A DNA stretch of 22,638 bases from a virus. A program made the translations under genes and the position numbers. The notes beneath the pieces are model-generated. The model searched no databases. It saw only the letters and a program-made list of their open reading frames with translations, and was not told the origin of the DNA. Below, piece after piece: positions 287 to 8,273 of this stretch (the first letter of the stretch is position 1; each line of letters starts with the position of its first letter). The stretch is from the IMG/VR virus record IMGVR_UViG_3300042197_001094, positions 1 through 22,638 of that record. One strand, given 5' to 3'.

Positions 287-371
287 TGGGTAGGGCGGGA
301 TTTGAACCCGCAGGTTTAGCACGTGGCACCAGCTTTACAGGCTGGCCTCTTCACCATTCGAGCACCTACCC
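287..371 (-). tRNA. tRNA-Tyr(GUA)
   Basis: Read on the minus strand this is an 85-nt class II tRNA. It has a 7-bp acceptor stem GGGTAGG/CCTACCC with an A discriminator, a D-arm CTC/GAG, and an anticodon stem CCAGC/GCTGG with loop CTGTAAA. That loop gives U33, anticodon GUA and A37. A long variable arm follows, as expected for bacterial tRNA-Tyr, then a T-arm GCGGG-TTCAAAT-CCCGC. CCA is not encoded. It lies at the downstream end of the small-gene minus-strand operon and may share its transcript. A phage tRNA-Tyr could compensate for codon use or for host tRNA cleavage (inference). Confidence 0.93.
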
Positions 372-2780: not shown

Positions 2781-3173
2781 CGTCATCACTCCCGAGTCTT
2801 GATCGCCACTCGCGTTTTGCGTTTGGCATGTGCGTATTTTACCTTCCGATCGATTCGCGTCTAGAGAAAACTAGAAAAATTATCCGGCTTTGTCCCAAGT
2901 CACTGCCACGCATAGACTTGCGTCGACAGATTTTCCAGTTTGCCGCTCGGTTTCCGCTCGCCCGATCGCTTTCGACTCGGGAAAACAAGGGTGGAATTGA
3001 CTTCGCGAATTCCGATGGATTGCGTCCAGTTCGGTTTTCCTAGCGTGAATCGCACCTCGTACCATCAACGTATGCTCCTCCTTCTGCCCTTACCCGCTGT
3101 CGCCTGGCTCGACCCCGCCTCTGCTGTGGCCGGGGTCGCGGTCGGTCTTGCCCTCGGGGTGGCGGTGCGACTG
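2781..3173. other. gene-poor divergent regulatory region, left part
   Basis: No protein gene is well supported here. The stretch separates minus-strand genes (left) from plus-strand elements (right). It contains a direct repeat CTAGAGAAAA/CTAGAAAAA near 2861-2880, two copies of TTCCGAT (2844-2850 and 3010-3016) and the perfect palindrome TTCGCGAA (3002-3009). TTCCGAT also sits just upstream of both plus-strand promoters at about 4.4 and 4.9 kb, so this region may carry operators for the same regulator. That is inference. Confidence 0.4.
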
Positions 3174-3200
3174 TTGACGCAGGGGCCGAGGGCGATATAA
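3072..3200 (+). CDS. possible small membrane protein
   Basis: An open frame for 42 residues, mostly hydrophobic (LLLLPLPAVAWL, then AVAGVAVGLALGVAVRLL), ending inside the -10 box of the following promoter. It would make one or two membrane segments with a short basic tail, as in small holins. No ribosome binding site precedes the ATG and no clear promoter is seen. Valine- and alanine-rich frames arise by chance in G+C-rich DNA, so I hold this call weakly. Confidence 0.22.
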   Translation: MLLLLPLPAVAWLDPASAVAGVAVGLALGVAVRLLTQGPRAI

Positions 3201-3201
3201 T
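3174..3201 (+). promoter_or_regulatory. near-consensus sigma70-type promoter of the small RNA
   Basis: TTGACG (-35, 3174-3179), a 16-nt spacer, then a perfect TATAAT (-10, 3196-3201). This is the strongest promoter match in the window. Transcription would start near 3208. No gene begins within 100 nt, but an intrinsic terminator ends at about 3304. Confidence 0.8.
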
Positions 3202-3207
3202 GCCCGC

Positions 3208-3306
3208 ATGCGACGAGGGTACTAGACTCGTCACACAGACCGAACATGCTTCAACCCGCTTGGACCTTCAGCCGCTAGTACCGGCGAGTCCCAGCGGGTT
3301 TTTTCA
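3208..3306 (+). ncRNA. predicted ~100-nt phage small RNA with complementary loops
   Basis: The element runs from a near-consensus promoter to a strong intrinsic terminator, and no real gene lies between. Hairpin 1 has the 6-bp stem GACGAG/CTCGTC (3212-3217 with 3227-3232) and a 9-nt loop. Hairpin 2 is the terminator, topped by GCCG/CGGC with loop CTAGTAC. Loop 1 contains GGTACTAG (3218-3225), the exact reverse complement of CTAGTACC at 3275-3282. A loop-loop (kissing) contact of 7-8 bp could therefore form inside the RNA or between two copies. A five-codon open frame (MRRGY) starts at 3209. I recognise no known RNA family. It may regulate phage or host mRNAs in trans, or be a structural or defence-evasion RNA. 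Confidence 0.65.
3253..3304 (+). terminator. intrinsic terminator of the small RNA
   Basis: AACCCGCT (3253-3260) pairs with AGCGGGTT (3293-3300). After one T-C mismatch, GGAC (3262-3265) pairs with GTCC (3288-3291). An inner 4-bp stem (3271-3274 with 3282-3285) closes loop CTAGTAC. Six T residues follow from 3299. This is the clearest rho-independent terminator in the window. Confidence 0.85.
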
Positions 3307-3685
3307 TGTACGGCAGACATAGCCAATGTGGCACCCGTCGCGACAGCGGTAGACCTGCGGGTCATGTCGTCACAGTACCGTCGGCTGTGAGCAATCGACG
3401 AGTAGGGCTTGTGGGAACTTCCAGCGGTGACTTCCACCCACCGGTGATCGGGGCTGTCTCGGTTGCTGTGCCCGGCGTGTGAAGCGTGCTGCGTTATCGA
3501 AGTGGCACGGATCGGAGACGCCTACAAGAAATAGCCGGTCTCACGCAAAACGCCATACGTCCGGGACGGTCGGCAGACTGCGGTGATTTCCAGATTTGAC
3601 CCTCTTTCCGGGGGTTTGTCTGGAAGTCACTGTTTCACCACCATCCGAACAATCGGCAGGAGCCTTTACCAGAGGAGATGACACG
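3307..3685 (+). other. leader region of the plus-strand operon with a long stem-loop
   Basis: I find no supported gene here. Just before the first plus-strand gene lies a hairpin. TTCCAGA (3588-3594) pairs with TCTGGAA (3619-3625), and an inner ACCC (3599-3602) pairs with GGGT (3612-3615). It probably lies in the mRNA leader and may affect stability or translation. No good -35/-10 pair is visible upstream, so the promoter of the first plus-strand genes remains unknown. Confidence 0.4.
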
Positions 3686-3919
3686 ATGACACCCCTGACC
3701 ATGACCGCCTTGACCGAGGCCTGGAAGAACATCACCCGAATCCCGGTGGAGCGTATCCGGTCTGATGGCAGCCACAGTGCCTACTATGGATTTCCAGCGA
3801 CCATTCAGCGACTCGAACACGGCTACGTCTCGATCACACTGGCCCACTGGAATGAGGACGGCCCGACCGTTATGTACCGCCTCATTGGCGACGGGGAAAC
3901 GCTGGAGCCTGTGCAATGA
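3686..3919 (+). CDS. small hypothetical protein, first gene of the plus-strand operon
   Basis: The product has 77 residues. The ATG is chosen because AGAGGAG lies 8 nt upstream; the frame is open further 5' but without an SD. After a helix (MTALTEAWKNI), the protein is rich in beta-type segments (AYYGFPATIQRLEHGYVSITLAHW..PTVMYRLIGDG). No membrane segment or known motif is seen. Its stop overlaps the next start (ATGA). With the next two genes it forms a coupled trio of small soluble proteins of similar size and similar MT-x-L-start style. Confidence 0.78.
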   Translation: MTPLTMTALTEAWKNITRIPVERIRSDGSHSAYYGFPATIQRLEHGYVSITLAHWNEDGPTVMYRLIGDGETLEPVQ

Positions 3920-4128
3920 CCCTGCGCGAACTCCGTGACATGATTGCAAACCGCCAGCCCCTGATAAGCCGAATTGGGGAACCATACGAAGTCGTTCCCT
4001 ACGACTACACTCAGTATCGTGGACGGGTCGCCATTCACTGCACCAGCCCGGATGGTGGCTTCGATACGATCATTATGACCGCCGATCCCTCCCCCACCAA
4101 TGACCCCCTGGACGCCGAACTCCGATGA
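3916..4128 (+). CDS. small hypothetical protein
   Basis: A 70-residue protein coupled by ATGA overlaps to both neighbours. It opens MTLRELRDMIANRQPL, a likely helix. Beta-like segments follow (YEVVPYDYTQYRGRVAIHCTSPDGGFDTIIMTA), and the tail is rich in proline and aspartate. The opening and the alternation of helix then strands resemble the next gene (MTFTELTAAMW...), so they may be distant paralogues. There is no catalytic or metal-binding pattern I can name. Confidence 0.75.
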   Translation: MTLRELRDMIANRQPLISRIGEPYEVVPYDYTQYRGRVAIHCTSPDGGFDTIIMTADPSPTNDPLDAELR

Positions 4129-4334
4129 CCTTCACCGAACTCACCGCCGCCATGTGGCACCAAACACGCATCGAGATAGGTACTGTCTGCGGTAATCCCG
4201 TGTGCGGGGTGCCGATCACGGTAGACCGTCGCGAATCGGACGATACAGGCATCTATTGGCGTGTGCACTATCGCACCGACCGCGACACAGTAGCCAGTCT
4301 GCTGGTGATGATCGACTCGTTCGATTCCCACTGA
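4125..4334 (+). CDS. small hypothetical protein
   Basis: This 69-residue protein is translated from an ATG overlapping the upstream stop (ATGA). It starts MTFTELTAAMWHQ and then reads as beta strands (IEIGTVCGNPVCGVPITVDRR, GIYWRVHYRTDRD, VASLLVMID). Two cysteines spaced CGNPVC could bind metal but are not part of a fuller motif. It ends the first plus-strand transcription unit. The next gene has its own promoter about 60 nt downstream. Confidence 0.72.
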   Translation: MTFTELTAAMWHQTRIEIGTVCGNPVCGVPITVDRRESDDTGIYWRVHYRTDRDTVASLLVMIDSFDSH

Positions 4335-4375
4335 ACGCCCGTTAACCTTTTTGCTGGTCCCGACAAAATGCAAAA

Positions 4376-4420
4376 TTCTTCCGATTCTCTCTTGCAATTG
4401 TTTCCGCATGCCGATATATT
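4376..4420 (+). promoter_or_regulatory. promoter P1 with shared operator-like elements
   Basis: -35 TTGCAA (4392-4397), a 17-nt spacer and -10 TATATT (4415-4420). The element TTCTTCCGATT (4376-4386) lies 5 nt before the -35. The spacer and -10 hold TTCCGCATGCCGATATA (4402-4418). Both elements recur at identical spacing in P2 at 4854-4898. Conserved spacer sequence is not required by sigma factor, so a repressor or activator site is likely. GCATGC forms a palindromic centre. Confidence 0.78.
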
Positions 4421-4471
4421 TCTGACATGCAACGCGACTGACGCGAAGCGAAACCAACCGGGAGACGAGTG

Positions 4472-4807
4472 ATGACGACTGCCGCCCACAAGTGCTGTAA
4501 GTGCAACGGAACCGGACACATCGCCAAGTTCGACTGGATTCTTGGTGGCCGCTGTTTCGCCTGCAACGCCACCGGAACCGCAACATACGCCCCGGTCAAT
4601 CCCGAGATTCAAGCCAAGCAGGTCACCGAAGAAGATTGCAAGCGACACGCTTGGGTGATGGCCGCGTCGGCCTCTCAGATTGCCAGCCTGACCAAGGCAC
4701 AGCGGGAGCGGATGTATTGGTGGATTTGCGAGAACGACGCTGTCTGGCCCCAGATGTGGAAGAAATACGTGGCCCACTGCGGGGACGGGCAAGAGTTCCG
4801 AAACTGA
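4472..4807 (+). CDS. protein with DnaJ-type CxxCxGxG zinc-binding repeats
   Basis: The protein has 111 residues. Its ATG is preceded by GGGAG at 7 nt; a GTG three bases earlier is less well placed. Residues 9-16 (CKCNGTGH) and 27-34 (CFACNATG) form two copies of the CxxCxGxG pattern, or close to it, known from the DnaJ/Hsp40 zinc centre, where such pairs bind one zinc and act in protein or nucleic-acid contact. The rest is helical and tryptophan-rich (LTKAQRERMYWWICENDAVWPQMWKKYV). The true J-domain is absent, so this is not DnaJ itself. It has its own promoter (P1) and is followed by a stem-loop, so it is a self-contained expression cassette. Confidence 0.82.
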   Translation: MTTAAHKCCKCNGTGHIAKFDWILGGRCFACNATGTATYAPVNPEIQAKQVTEEDCKRHAWVMAASASQIASLTKAQRERMYWWICENDAVWPQMWKKYVAHCGDGQEFRN

Positions 4808-4821
4808 CACCACCCGCCAGA

Positions 4822-4862
4822 CCCCCGGGAATCGGCCCGGGGGACTTCGGAATTTCTTCCGA
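4822..4862 (+). repeat. stem-loop plus TCGGAA/TTCCGA inverted repeat (cassette copy 1)
   Basis: Perfect 8-bp stem CCCCCGGG/CCCGGGGG (4822-4829 with 4836-4843, loop AATCGG). A second hairpin, TCGGAA/TTCCGA (4847-4852 with 4857-4862), follows directly. A close relative stands at 5412-5454. There is no U-tract. It may terminate or insulate the upstream cassette, while the second repeat may be an operator, because it overlaps the conserved TTCTTCCGATT element of P2. Confidence 0.65.
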
Positions 4863-4898
4863 TTTCCTGTTGATAATCCTTCCGCATGCCGATATAAA
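4854..4898 (+). promoter_or_regulatory. promoter P2 with shared operator-like elements
   Basis: -35 TTGATA (4870-4875), a 17-nt spacer and -10 TATAAA (4893-4898). TTCTTCCGATT (4854-4864) and TTCCGCATGCCGATATA (4880-4896) are identical to P1, with the same distances. The leaders are also alike, ending CCAACC..GGGAG before the start codon. This indicates a duplicated control region. Confidence 0.8.
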
Positions 4899-4952
4899 TA
4901 CACCATGTCAGCCGCATGTCGCGGTTGACGCCAACCCCGGGAGATGATGACC

Positions 4953-5150
4953 ATGAAGACCACAACGAAACGTCCCGCGAATGTGACCGCCCGACTCTAC
5001 GTTACCCGCGACGGAAGCAATCTTACCCACGCACAGGCGCAGGCACTGGTAGCTAGGTACGGCTACTGTGAGGATGCCCTAGATTACATGCGGGTTGGCG
5101 AGGTCTATCACAATGGCCCGATGTGGCTCCAGCGGATGTACGACGCCTGA
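4953..5150 (+). CDS. small basic hypothetical protein
   Basis: The protein has 65 residues. Three in-frame ATGs (4944, 4947, 4953) follow the SD CGGGAG. The third has the normal 9-nt spacing and is preferred. The N-terminus is basic (MKTTTKRP) and the next part is strand-like (ARLYVTRDG). A helix then follows (THAQAQALVARYG), and the C-terminal half is tyrosine- and methionine-rich (YMRVGEVYHNGPMWLQRMYDA). I recognise no family. It is driven by P2 and followed by a GC-rich stem-loop. Confidence 0.75.
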   Translation: MKTTTKRPANVTARLYVTRDGSNLTHAQAQALVARYGYCEDALDYMRVGEVYHNGPMWLQRMYDA

Positions 5151-5164
5151 CCCCCACCCACCCC

Positions 5165-5187
5165 GCCCCCTGCACATCGCGGGGGGC
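5165..5187 (+). terminator. GC-rich stem-loop between cassettes
   Basis: GCCCCC (5165-5170) can pair with GGGGGC (5182-5187) across a loop of about 10 nt. The tail CTTCCTCTGACCTGGAG leads straight into the next gene's SD. No U-tract is present, so full termination is doubtful. Its design matches the minus-strand element at 2493-2515. Confidence 0.5.
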
Positions 5188-5213
5188 TTCCTCTGACCTG
5201 GAGATGATGACAG

Positions 5214-5384
5214 ATGCCGGAATACCAGATTGCGTTTGACGACTCGACAGCCCCAAACGGCTGGTACATCGTCGAGGACTTTGAAGCCGCAGATGACAGG
5301 GCGGCCAACGCATACGCCGACGAGCACTACGCCGATCAGGAATGGTGGGTGTTGGATGCCAGTGGACGCAACATCAACGGCTGA
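5214..5384 (+). CDS. small acidic hypothetical protein
   Basis: The protein has 56 residues. Its ATG has GGAG 10 nt upstream, inside the run GGAGATGATGACAGATG, which is also used before the 4953 gene. It is very acidic. A beta hairpin is likely in the first third (YQIAFDDSTAPNGWYIVEDF). An Ala- and Asp-rich helix follows (EAADDRAANAYADEHYAD), and it ends WWVLDASG. Small acidic phage proteins often mimic DNA or bind host enzymes, but nothing specific can be assigned. It has no promoter of its own visible and lies between two stem-loops. Confidence 0.72.
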   Translation: MPEYQIAFDDSTAPNGWYIVEDFEAADDRAANAYADEHYADQEWWVLDASGRNING

Positions 5385-5411
5385 CGCGATCAGGACAACT
5401 GATCCCCACAC

Positions 5412-5454
5412 GCCCCCGGGATTGGCTCGGGGGCAACTGTTCGGAAATTCCGAA
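5412..5454 (+). repeat. stem-loop plus TTCGGAA/TTCCGAA palindrome (cassette copy 2)
   Basis: Stem GCCCCCG/CGGGGGC (5412-5418 with 5428-5434, loop GGATTGGCT). Next comes the perfect 15-nt palindrome TTCGGAAATTCCGAA (5440-5454). The order and much of the sequence match 4822-4862, though no clear -35/-10 follows here. The palindrome is a good candidate repressor site. Confidence 0.62.
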
Positions 5455-5491
5455 TGGTTCAACTGTTCGAATTCCTCTAAGAGTTCACACG

Positions 5492-5674
5492 ATGACCTAC
5501 ACCACCGCAACCGCCGCCGCTGCACTCGGGCTGACCCCCCGGCAGGTCGGCCACCTCGCCAAACTGCACGGGCTCGGGCAGAAGATTGGCCGCGACTGGC
5601 AGTTCACCCCCGCCGAGGTCCGCCGCATGCGGAAGCGCCCGACAGTGGGACGCCCACGGAAGGAGGCGAAGTGA
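5492..5674 (+). CDS. excisionase/MerR-like helix-turn-helix protein with AT-hook-like tail
   Basis: A 60-residue basic protein. Residues 4-40 fit the short winged helix-turn-helix of Xis/MerR/HTH_17 proteins. The recognition-type segment is TATAAAALGLTPRQVGHLAK, and the wing is GQKIGRDWQFTPAEVRRM. The tail carries VGRPRKEAK, resembling an AT-hook (GRPRK) that binds the minor groove. Such proteins act as directionality factors, terminase-like adaptors or local regulators. No integrase is in the window, so a regulatory role for the early cassettes is at least as likely. The SD is weak (AAGAG). Its stop overlaps the next start. Confidence 0.8.
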   Translation: MTYTTATAAAALGLTPRQVGHLAKLHGLGQKIGRDWQFTPAEVRRMRKRPTVGRPRKEAK

Positions 5675-6027
5675 TGACCCAGCCAGCCCTCACCTACCAC
5701 ATTGCCGGGTTGGCCCGATACATCCAGCCTGCCGGGCTGCTGGTCCTCTCGCCGCAGGACGAACTCAACCGGCAGGAGTTCCTTGCCCTGACCGCCGCGA
5801 TAATCCACGCCCGAGAGTACCGCACTGACGTGATCGTCTGGCGGTGCAGTGACCGCTGGGAGTGGGCCACATCTGCCGATCCCCTGCCGATCAGCGCATA
5901 CATCGACGGTGTTCCGGAATGCCAGATTACCGTCACCGATGACACCCAGACCGTTCGCCGCGTGATCCAACTCGGCGAGTCCACCGTTACCCCTGTTCCT
6001 GTCCCCGAAAAAAGGAAGTCCCGATGA
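5674..6027 (+). CDS. hypothetical protein
   Basis: The 117-residue protein has a strong SD (GGAGG, 7 nt before the ATG), which overlaps the HTH gene's TGA. The first 60 residues read as a mixed fold (YHIAGLARYI..LLVLSPQDELNRQEFLALTAAIIHAREYRTDVIVWRC). A beta-rich part and a polar, proline-rich tail (TPVPVPEKRKSR) follow. Residues 19-60 look like a small alternating beta-alpha domain. There are no catalytic residues I can point to. It is coupled to the HTH gene, so a shared function is plausible, but none is assigned. Confidence 0.78.
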   Translation: MTQPALTYHIAGLARYIQPAGLLVLSPQDELNRQEFLALTAAIIHAREYRTDVIVWRCSDRWEWATSADPLPISAYIDGVPECQITVTDDTQTVRRVIQLGESTVTPVPVPEKRKSR

Positions 6028-6251
6028 CCCGTCTCTGCCTCGCTGCTGTCGCTCTAGGCCTCGCCTGTGCCGCTGGCCTGTATCTGGACGCCAAGCCCCG
6101 TCACGCCGTCCCAGGGGCCATCGTAGGGGCTTCCGCACGTACTCCCGTGCTGGGGCTCCTAGAATACCGATACGAACTTGCCCGCCTTGCCGAACAGGCT
6201 CGGGGTCAACAGGCCGAGATTGACGCCCTACCTGATCCACTCGCGGAATAG
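6024..6251 (+). CDS. small N-terminally anchored membrane or exported protein
   Basis: The protein has 75 residues. It overlaps the upstream stop (ATGA), with GGAAG as SD. Residues 3-20 (RLCLAAVALGLACAAGLYL) form a signal peptide or membrane anchor. No good lipobox precedes the cysteine. A helical charged domain follows (YRYELARLAEQARGQQAEIDAL), which could form a coiled coil. An anchor plus periplasmic helix is the layout of an i-spanin, but the protein is short and no lysis partners are visible. It is the last plus-strand gene, and its end overlaps the convergent late operon by 24 bp. Confidence 0.72.
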   Translation: MTRLCLAAVALGLACAAGLYLDAKPRHAVPGAIVGASARTPVLGLLEYRYELARLAEQARGQQAEIDALPDPLAE

Positions 6252-7950: not shown

Positions 7951-8273
7951 TCTGCGGCAATCACGAGAAACCCAAAGTTAGTGGTGAAACACAAGACTTC
8001 CTTGTCTGCCGCAATTGATCCAAATCGATTTACCACCGTGATATTATCACCCGTATCAGCCCCTCCTAAATCTTGTGGCTTATCCCAAACGCTGACGGTT
8101 CCCGTGTCGCCTTTTGTGATTGCCGCATCGGTTTTTCCAAACACCACGTAGTCGAACTGCAGCGCGATCGAGTTCGCCCGCGATGTCTGCGGCAGTTCCT
8201 GCTGCCCCTCGACGTGTCGCACCGTCGCGCGAATGCGTTGGACCGCGTCACCGGAAAACGTGTAGCCTGCCAT
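7944..8273 (-). CDS. putative distal tail or fibre-associated protein
   Basis: A 109-residue protein with a TGATG overlap to the gene before. Its composition is beta-rich, with many small polar residues (AGYTFSGDAVQRIRATVRHVEG; FDYVVFGKTDAAITKGDTGTVSVW; GDNITVVNRFGSI). The pattern KGDTGTVSVW fits a small beta-sandwich or fibre-tip domain, as often found at tail ends. It ends with a lone cysteine (AAEC), directly ahead of the cysteine-rich protein. I do not recognise a family. The assignment rests on position and fold style. Confidence 0.72.
   Translation of the reverse strand: MAGYTFSGDAVQRIRATVRHVEGQQELPQTSRANSIALQFDYVVFGKTDAAITKGDTGTVSVWDKPQDLGGADTGDNITVVNRFGSIAADKEVLCFTTNFGFLVIAAEC

Follow-up and report, generated by a model that had tools for sequence, protein, structure and literature searches.

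What lies in the short gap between two divergent blocks of small genes on the IMG/VR virus contig IMGVR_UViG_3300042197_001094? The window analyzed here is the whole contig of 22,638 bases (positions 1 to 22,638), and the element in question (3174-3304) sits in the gap that separates a minus-strand block (about 625-2789) from a plus-strand block (about 3686-6251). A first-pass annotation, made from the sequence alone, had placed it between two divergent small-gene operons, with which these block positions agree, and had described it as an orphan small RNA with two loops that are exact reverse complements. We ask here whether the contact between these loops is selected and what such an RNA may do. 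To our knowledge, small phage RNAs with a selected tertiary contact have rarely been found by sequence alone, and we know of hardly any phage biology in the Planctomycetota.

Source phage and likely host

The contig derives from an HK97-like tailed phage, for which a large terminase, a portal, an S78 prohead protease, a major capsid protein, and a tape measure protein were found above the Pfam cut-offs. Its host was inferred with profile A2, built on one tail protein of the phage, which detects tail relatives in 7 of 392 Planctomycetota genomes and in none of 349 genomes of the Pseudomonadota, the phylum of a Salinicola record. Because of this difference, Planctomycetota is the likely host phylum, an assignment that draws on distant prophage relatives only.

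Near the left end of the window, a tRNA-Tyr (GTA) gene (287-371, minus strand) may be either a phage tRNA or host flank. On the same strand, a CsrA homologue (Pfam CsrA, E 7e-15) adjoins a ribbon-helix-helix protein (1557-1730 and 1732-1899); homologues of both are present in the related contig L007, and a CsrA-like ORF was noticed by eye in another relative, L239. A CsrA-binding decoy was considered as a role for the element and rejected on inspection, as neither loop contains GGA and the sole GGA lies in the terminator stem. At 2807-2838, immediately within the promoter of the minus-strand operon, about 30 nt (TCGCCACTCGCGTTTTGCGTTTGGCATGT) are identical in L007, with flanks that are only partly alike; whether this block is an operator or a leader element is a question that we raise here. 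Upstream of the plus-strand block, a near-perfect inverted repeat (GTGATTTCCAGA ... TCTGGAAGTCAC, about 3580-3635) is a possible operator.

A predicted promoter-to-terminator unit

The element lies on the plus strand and opens with a sigma-70-type promoter, TTGACG-N16-TATAAT (3174-3201), in which a −35 box at 3174-3179 and a −10 box at 3196-3201 are separated by a 16-nt spacer. It matches 11 of 12 consensus bases, as the near-consensus promoter annotated at first should, and it is the top-scoring site within 3 kb. Transcription would start about 7 nt past the −10 box and give a small RNA of about 97 nt (3208-3304). Close to its 5′ end, folding predicts a hairpin (GACGAG-GGUACUAGA-CUCGUC, 3212-3232) whose stem covaries in relatives; in the DNA, GACGAG (3212-3217) and CTCGTC (3227-3232) enclose the loop GGTACTAGA (3218-3226). 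A 20-nt linker (3233-3252; 16 to 20 nt in close relatives) leads to an intrinsic terminator (3253-3304) composed of an outer stem AACCCGCU/AGCGGGUU (AACCCGCT/AGCGGGTT in the DNA), an inner stem GCCG/CGGC, the loop CUAGUAC (CTAGTAC, 3275-3281), and a U6 tract (six T at 3299-3304). A simple terminator scan did not pick up this terminator because of its internal loops. The minimum free energy of the element is −41 kcal/mol (z −3.4), and 0 of 200 shuffles were equally stable. Like an autonomous bacterial or phage sRNA, the unit therefore has its own promoter and intrinsic terminator, both recognized as sequence features, and the earlier description of about 100 nt bracketed by the two holds, with the 5′ hairpin and the terminator located within 3174-3304.

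A small hydrophobic ORF of 42 aa (MLLLLPLPAVAWLDPAS..., 3072-3200, plus strand) precedes the RNA, its stop codon lying inside the −10 box, and is conserved in five phages (the window, L007, L207, L234, and L239). The −35 box falls on a Leu-Thr codon pair of this ORF in five relatives. By our count, the Leu codon concerned is TTG in five of five, versus 6 of the 48 other Leu codons of the same ORFs, which argues that the promoter is constrained beyond coding. The motif TTGAC-N16-TATAATG is common to L007 (where the promoter reads TTGACT-N16-TATAAT), L207, L234, L238, and L239. The copy of the element in L015 has no such small ORF beside it but does carry a promoter-like site; the element is thus an independent unit, distinct from the end of the ORF.

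A coding role for the RNA was also rejected. The frame from an AUG near the RNA start is open in L199 and L239, but the differences between them mostly change the amino acid; by inspection, the same frame is shifted in L207 and L234 and is 4 to 5 codons long in the window.

Two exactly complementary loops

GGTACTAG (3218-3225) and CTAGTACC (3275-3282) are exact 8-nt complements, and each occurs once in the 22.6-kb window. In the RNA, complementarity and structural comparison mark them as the 5′ loop segment (GGUACUAG, 3218-3225) and the terminator loop segment (CUAGUACC, 3275-3282). The exact 8-nt match reported in the first-pass annotation stands; its account of the terminator loop has to be corrected, however, since the terminal loop comprises only 7 nt (CUAGUAC), and the eighth loop-loop pair would use the C that closes the inner stem of the terminator.

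By mononucleotide shuffling, the complementarity of the window element alone has a p of about 6e-4, and the values for four other loop classes are 0.015, 5e-4, 1.7e-3, and 6e-5. An architecture scan of 1022 terminator hairpins from the collected loci found loop-loop complements of at least 7 nt in this family, in L127 (described below), and in L235 only, and permuting the loops among the 1022 terminators gave none of this length in three repeats. Loop complements in L135 and L138 were discarded as simple tandem repeats. Within the same contigs, the loop segments have no consistent third match, which points to the RNA itself as their conserved partner.

Relatives fall into six loop classes

Seven further IMG/VR contigs contain relatives of the element, and the planctomycete prophage L286 carries a similar one. 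The search led from tail-gene relatives (L007) through a two-end pattern (L199, L207, L234, and L238) to a promoter pattern, which gave L239, a copy lying in a 44.7-kb contig. Eight independent contigs, the window included, and one prophage represent six loop classes, with exact complements in every class: 11 nt in L007, 8 nt in L199 and L239, 8 nt in L207, L234, and L238, 7 nt in L286, and 6 nt in L015, whose two loops read AUGCAG and CUGCAU. L007 keeps the promoter and the terminator, then TTTTTTCATG, and has its interior replaced; its 5′ segment CGTGACGGGCA and its terminator loop TGCCCGTCACG are nonetheless exact complements. No clear 5′ hairpin is seen in L007, and a 13-nt loop cannot accommodate full pairing of the 11-nt complement.

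A covariance model built from four relatives, with the window left out, recovered the window element at E 7.5e-4 and L015 at E 8e-5 in a search of 772 kb. It does not detect the L286 copy, which consists of a promoter-like TTGACA-N17-TATACA, a hairpin CAUCG UUCCCCAC CGGUG, and a terminator with GUGGGGA at its apex. The L286 prophage has a distant tail relative, and the element lies just upstream of predicted HTH and integrase-like genes, so named from their sequences; its kinship is one of architecture and position, not of sequence. The same model (R1) gave no match in 392 Planctomycetota genomes, but because it misses L286 too, this result argues only weakly that the family is absent from them. 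BLAST of the element against the collected loci and the phage and plasmid collections returned no relatives, the plasmid hits being short chance matches, and a promoter-pattern search of genome contigs yielded 26 chance promoters of other genes and no family member. A search with the loop sequences hit 97 contigs, nearly all by chance; one of them, L127, shares the architecture of the element.

The loop-loop pairing appears to be selected

When 5′ regions are tabulated against terminator loops in a 5 × 5 table, complements of 8, 6, 8, 8, and 11 nt fall on the diagonal, and none off the diagonal exceeds 6 nt. In a structure-aligned comparison of five sequences, a table (A7) hand-cut to the structure and hence biased towards it, no cell of the loop-loop helix is unpaired (30 of 30 pair), and two-sided changes mark 5 of its 6 pairs (4 of 6 in the stem of the 5′ hairpin). 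The loop-loop signal is lost when the partners are slid by 1 to 3 columns. The helix also pairs in all cells of A5, a MAFFT alignment of four close relatives, in which two rows have G-C and the other two U-A at loop pair 23-79. Whole-structure covariation in these four is not above that of shuffles, so that the case is carried by the wider set. Hairpin 1 has an alternative inner stem in L199, L239, L207, and L234, which is in competition with the contact between the loops.

The predicted helices hold compensatory changes of the kind that mark a structured sRNA conserved by base-pair covariation. The first-pass annotation had proposed that compensatory changes in both loops across related phages would support the contact, and the relatives do keep the terminator (and, where the contig extends that far, the promoter) with loops that differ yet are exact complements. 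The converse pattern, which it had named as counterevidence, with the frame kept and the complementarity lost, is seen in no relative. The comparison shows the predicted loop pairing to have been kept by compensatory change through six loop sequences, and the pairing appears to be under selection. A protein-bound DNA inverted repeat was rejected as an explanation, as the repeat sequence is replaced wholesale between relatives and its place in hairpin loops is kept.

Comparison with known RNAs

Rfam 15 covariance models, with a match at or above the gathering score as criterion, find only a tRNA in the window; the element itself has no match even at E ≤ 5, and none was obtained for the L239 and L207 elements. 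The earlier impression that the RNA belongs to no recognizable family is borne out, and it is well supported by these comparisons that the elements form a phage RNA family absent from Rfam.

The phi29-type packaging RNA is a small phage RNA with two mutually complementary loops, a property that the element shares. The element, however, has no Rfam pRNA match, its predicted fold consists of two hairpins with no three-way junction, and the terminase of the window phage is of the TerL type, not a phi29-like motor. ColE1 RNAI and RNAII are kissing antisense RNAs. Plasmid antisense RNAs start by loop-loop kissing (PMC4878617), and the element resembles ColE1 RNAI/II and the pT181 attenuator (PMC4878617) in that recognition would involve loop-loop pairing of 6 to 8 nt and that the loops differ between otherwise alike elements. 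In contrast to these systems, its partner loops are on the same transcript, and no opposite-strand partner gene was seen.

GOLLD and ROOL are likewise phage-encoded structured RNAs with covarying kissing loops and of unknown function, but GOLLD is often over 800 nt long, with elaborate folds and RNA-only cages (PMC12286853). The GOLLD and ROOL family covariance models match neither the window nor the element, L239, or L207. In the accessible part of its description, IsrK of Gifsy-1 is similar as a short promoter-to-intrinsic-terminator RNA at the start of a same-strand phage operon; it differs from our element in that IsrK, an attenuated prophage leader, is reported to pair with sequence past its terminator (orf45), and a matching loop pair within the IsrK short form is not among the features described there (PMC4825925). 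As far as the non-subscription literature extends on IsrK, GOLLD/ROOL, and pT181, which represent the kinds of RNA nearest to the element, an sRNA with a co-varying 5′ loop and terminator loop is not described for any of them.

Discussion

We favor, at a probability of roughly 0.6, a phage sRNA of about 95 nt with its own promoter and terminator, whose loops kiss most likely within one molecule and which regulates the downstream operon. Such an RNA would be transcribed from its strong promoter and ended by the intrinsic terminator, after which the loop of the 5′ hairpin would kiss the terminator loop through 6 to 8 pairs. The RNA would then close on itself, from 5′ hairpin to 3′ terminator, within one molecule. 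Closure would stabilize the RNA and hold both loops inactive through self-pairing, until a partner RNA competing for one loop opened it; the opened RNA could in turn regulate the early or integration operon that it immediately precedes on its strand.

Pairing within one molecule is most likely, being favored over dimers on geometric grounds. A linker of 16 to 20 nt reaches about 110 to 136 Å, and stacking hairpin 1, the kissing helix, and the terminator coaxially takes about 84 to 95 Å; since the linker is just long enough for this span, intramolecular pairing is possible. The comparison data by themselves would fit pairing between molecules equally well. As to function, we infer either a closed, stable sRNA with self-paired loops or the leader of an early or integration operon. 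On its own strand, the element precedes the small-gene block in the window and L239; in L286, it precedes an HTH gene and an integrase. Since these blocks follow it immediately, the element may plausibly be linked to early or lysogeny functions.

The loops may instead pair between copies into dimers, chains, or rings, in the manner of phi29 packaging RNA or of GOLLD and ROOL, with the RNA as a scaffold, an unlikely reading and still the alternative that we take most seriously. Ring-forming RNAs need mutually complementary loops on one RNA, and covarying intermolecular kissing loops occur in the phage-encoded GOLLD and ROOL (PMC12286853), yet the linkers here are long enough for cis pairing, for which the local concentration is higher. 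In size, the RNA also falls far short of GOLLD and ROOL, and the TerL proteins of these phages are of the ordinary kind. We consider it slightly less probable again that the element is an attenuated leader, in which the terminator loop, emerging as the polymerase comes to the U-tract, kisses the 5′ hairpin and so tunes termination; in a lysogen, the same RNA would act in trans when a second phage enters, on the leader that this phage is transcribing, with the loops setting the immunity group. Models for this are P4 CI and P1 C4 RNA, which provide RNA-mediated superinfection immunity by premature termination. A further model is the Gifsy-1 sRNA/leader IsrK (PMC4825925). The same-strand early or integration block just downstream, the divergence of the loops between related phages within a kept frame, and the HTH gene and integrase adjoining the L286 copy would all agree with such a leader. 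However, the terminator with its U6 looks complete, and no antiterminator conformation was found; about 300 to 380 nt separate the element from the first downstream gene, and pairing in trans of an RNA with its own copy is an expectation. Target segments of the P4 CI/P1 C4 type were not found in the flanking leader, nor was a further copy of the loop segments in the window. Somewhat more doubtful still is an RNA that forms its contact in cis and also, between identical copies, in trans, its fast-diverging loops serving phage immunity or self-recognition in the manner of P4-type immunity.

The neighboring 42-aa ORF invites two further explanations, both of very low probability. As a type I antitoxin, the sRNA would silence the hydrophobic peptide just upstream (3072-3200) or a similar one. 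The conserved ORF does adjoin the sRNA in five phages, an sRNA beside a small hydrophobic peptide is the hallmark of type I loci (PMC3919570), and the terminator loop of the unrelated contig L127 is also complementary to the region in which the following small membrane ORF starts. But complementarity between the sRNA and the peptide start region is no better than shuffled (p 0.06 to 0.78), each sRNA fits the start regions of other phages about as well as its own, and L015 has a copy without such an ORF alongside. The least credible reading of all is that nothing special is present and that the upstream ORF simply ends in a usual terminator whose loop match arose by chance. In its favor, terminators of the intrinsic type abound, and the ORF has its stop codon immediately ahead of the element. 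The reading is contradicted by the comparison, in which all relatives keep the complementarity through different sequences, and it leaves unexplained that the permuted-loop control gives none, that the promoter is constrained beyond coding, and that L015 has the element without the ORF.

What the family conserves is the contact itself, not a sequence. With two loops co-evolving on one transcript, it offers a compact (about 95 nt) and directly testable model of such co-evolution, and it would be a first structured RNA for phages of a phylum, probably the Planctomycetota. If the loops also act between copies, the RNA would constitute an RNA-based self-recognition system; if the immunity reading is true, planctomycete phages would possess an RNA counterpart of plasmid incompatibility, with each phage recognizing only its own kind.

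Neighboring elements

In L127 (IMGVR_UViG_3300029305_011434, 2250-2375), an unrelated phage, the same architecture carries the loop sequence of the window itself, in a hairpin UAGAGG UGGUACUAGC CCUCUA and a terminator loop CUAGUAC. A third copy, GGTACTAGC, follows a Shine-Dalgarno-like AAAAGG and stands ahead of the ATG with which the next small membrane ORF begins; a third loop copy of this kind was found nowhere in the window's family. The arrangement suggests that in L127 the terminator loop may act as an antisense seed and the 5′ loop as a target mimic, L127 having been retrieved by its two complementary 8-mers, so that the independent evidence consists of the hairpin placement and the third copy only.

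A second conserved stretch of about 300 nt is located downstream of the element in L007, L015, L199, L207 (minus strand, about 10400 to 10100), and L234. It reads CTCGGTCGTAAAACTA ... GTCGACTGA, followed in four of the five by TTGAATCCGGGCTCTGTCC.ACCCTGACA.CCCGGGCC, and was not seen in the window or L239. This stretch is possibly another structured RNA, a leader, or an origin.

The L239 record (44.7 kb, L271-L273) is like the window in the sRNA and the small-gene region and unlike it in most structural genes, so that the sRNA module moves among phages whose morphogenesis genes differ. Directly after the sRNA terminator, at 8205-8260, L239 holds a tRNA-like fragment (CCCGGTTCGATTCTGGG), recognized by eye and flanked by GGACTG/CAGTCC, that is perhaps the remnant of an att site.
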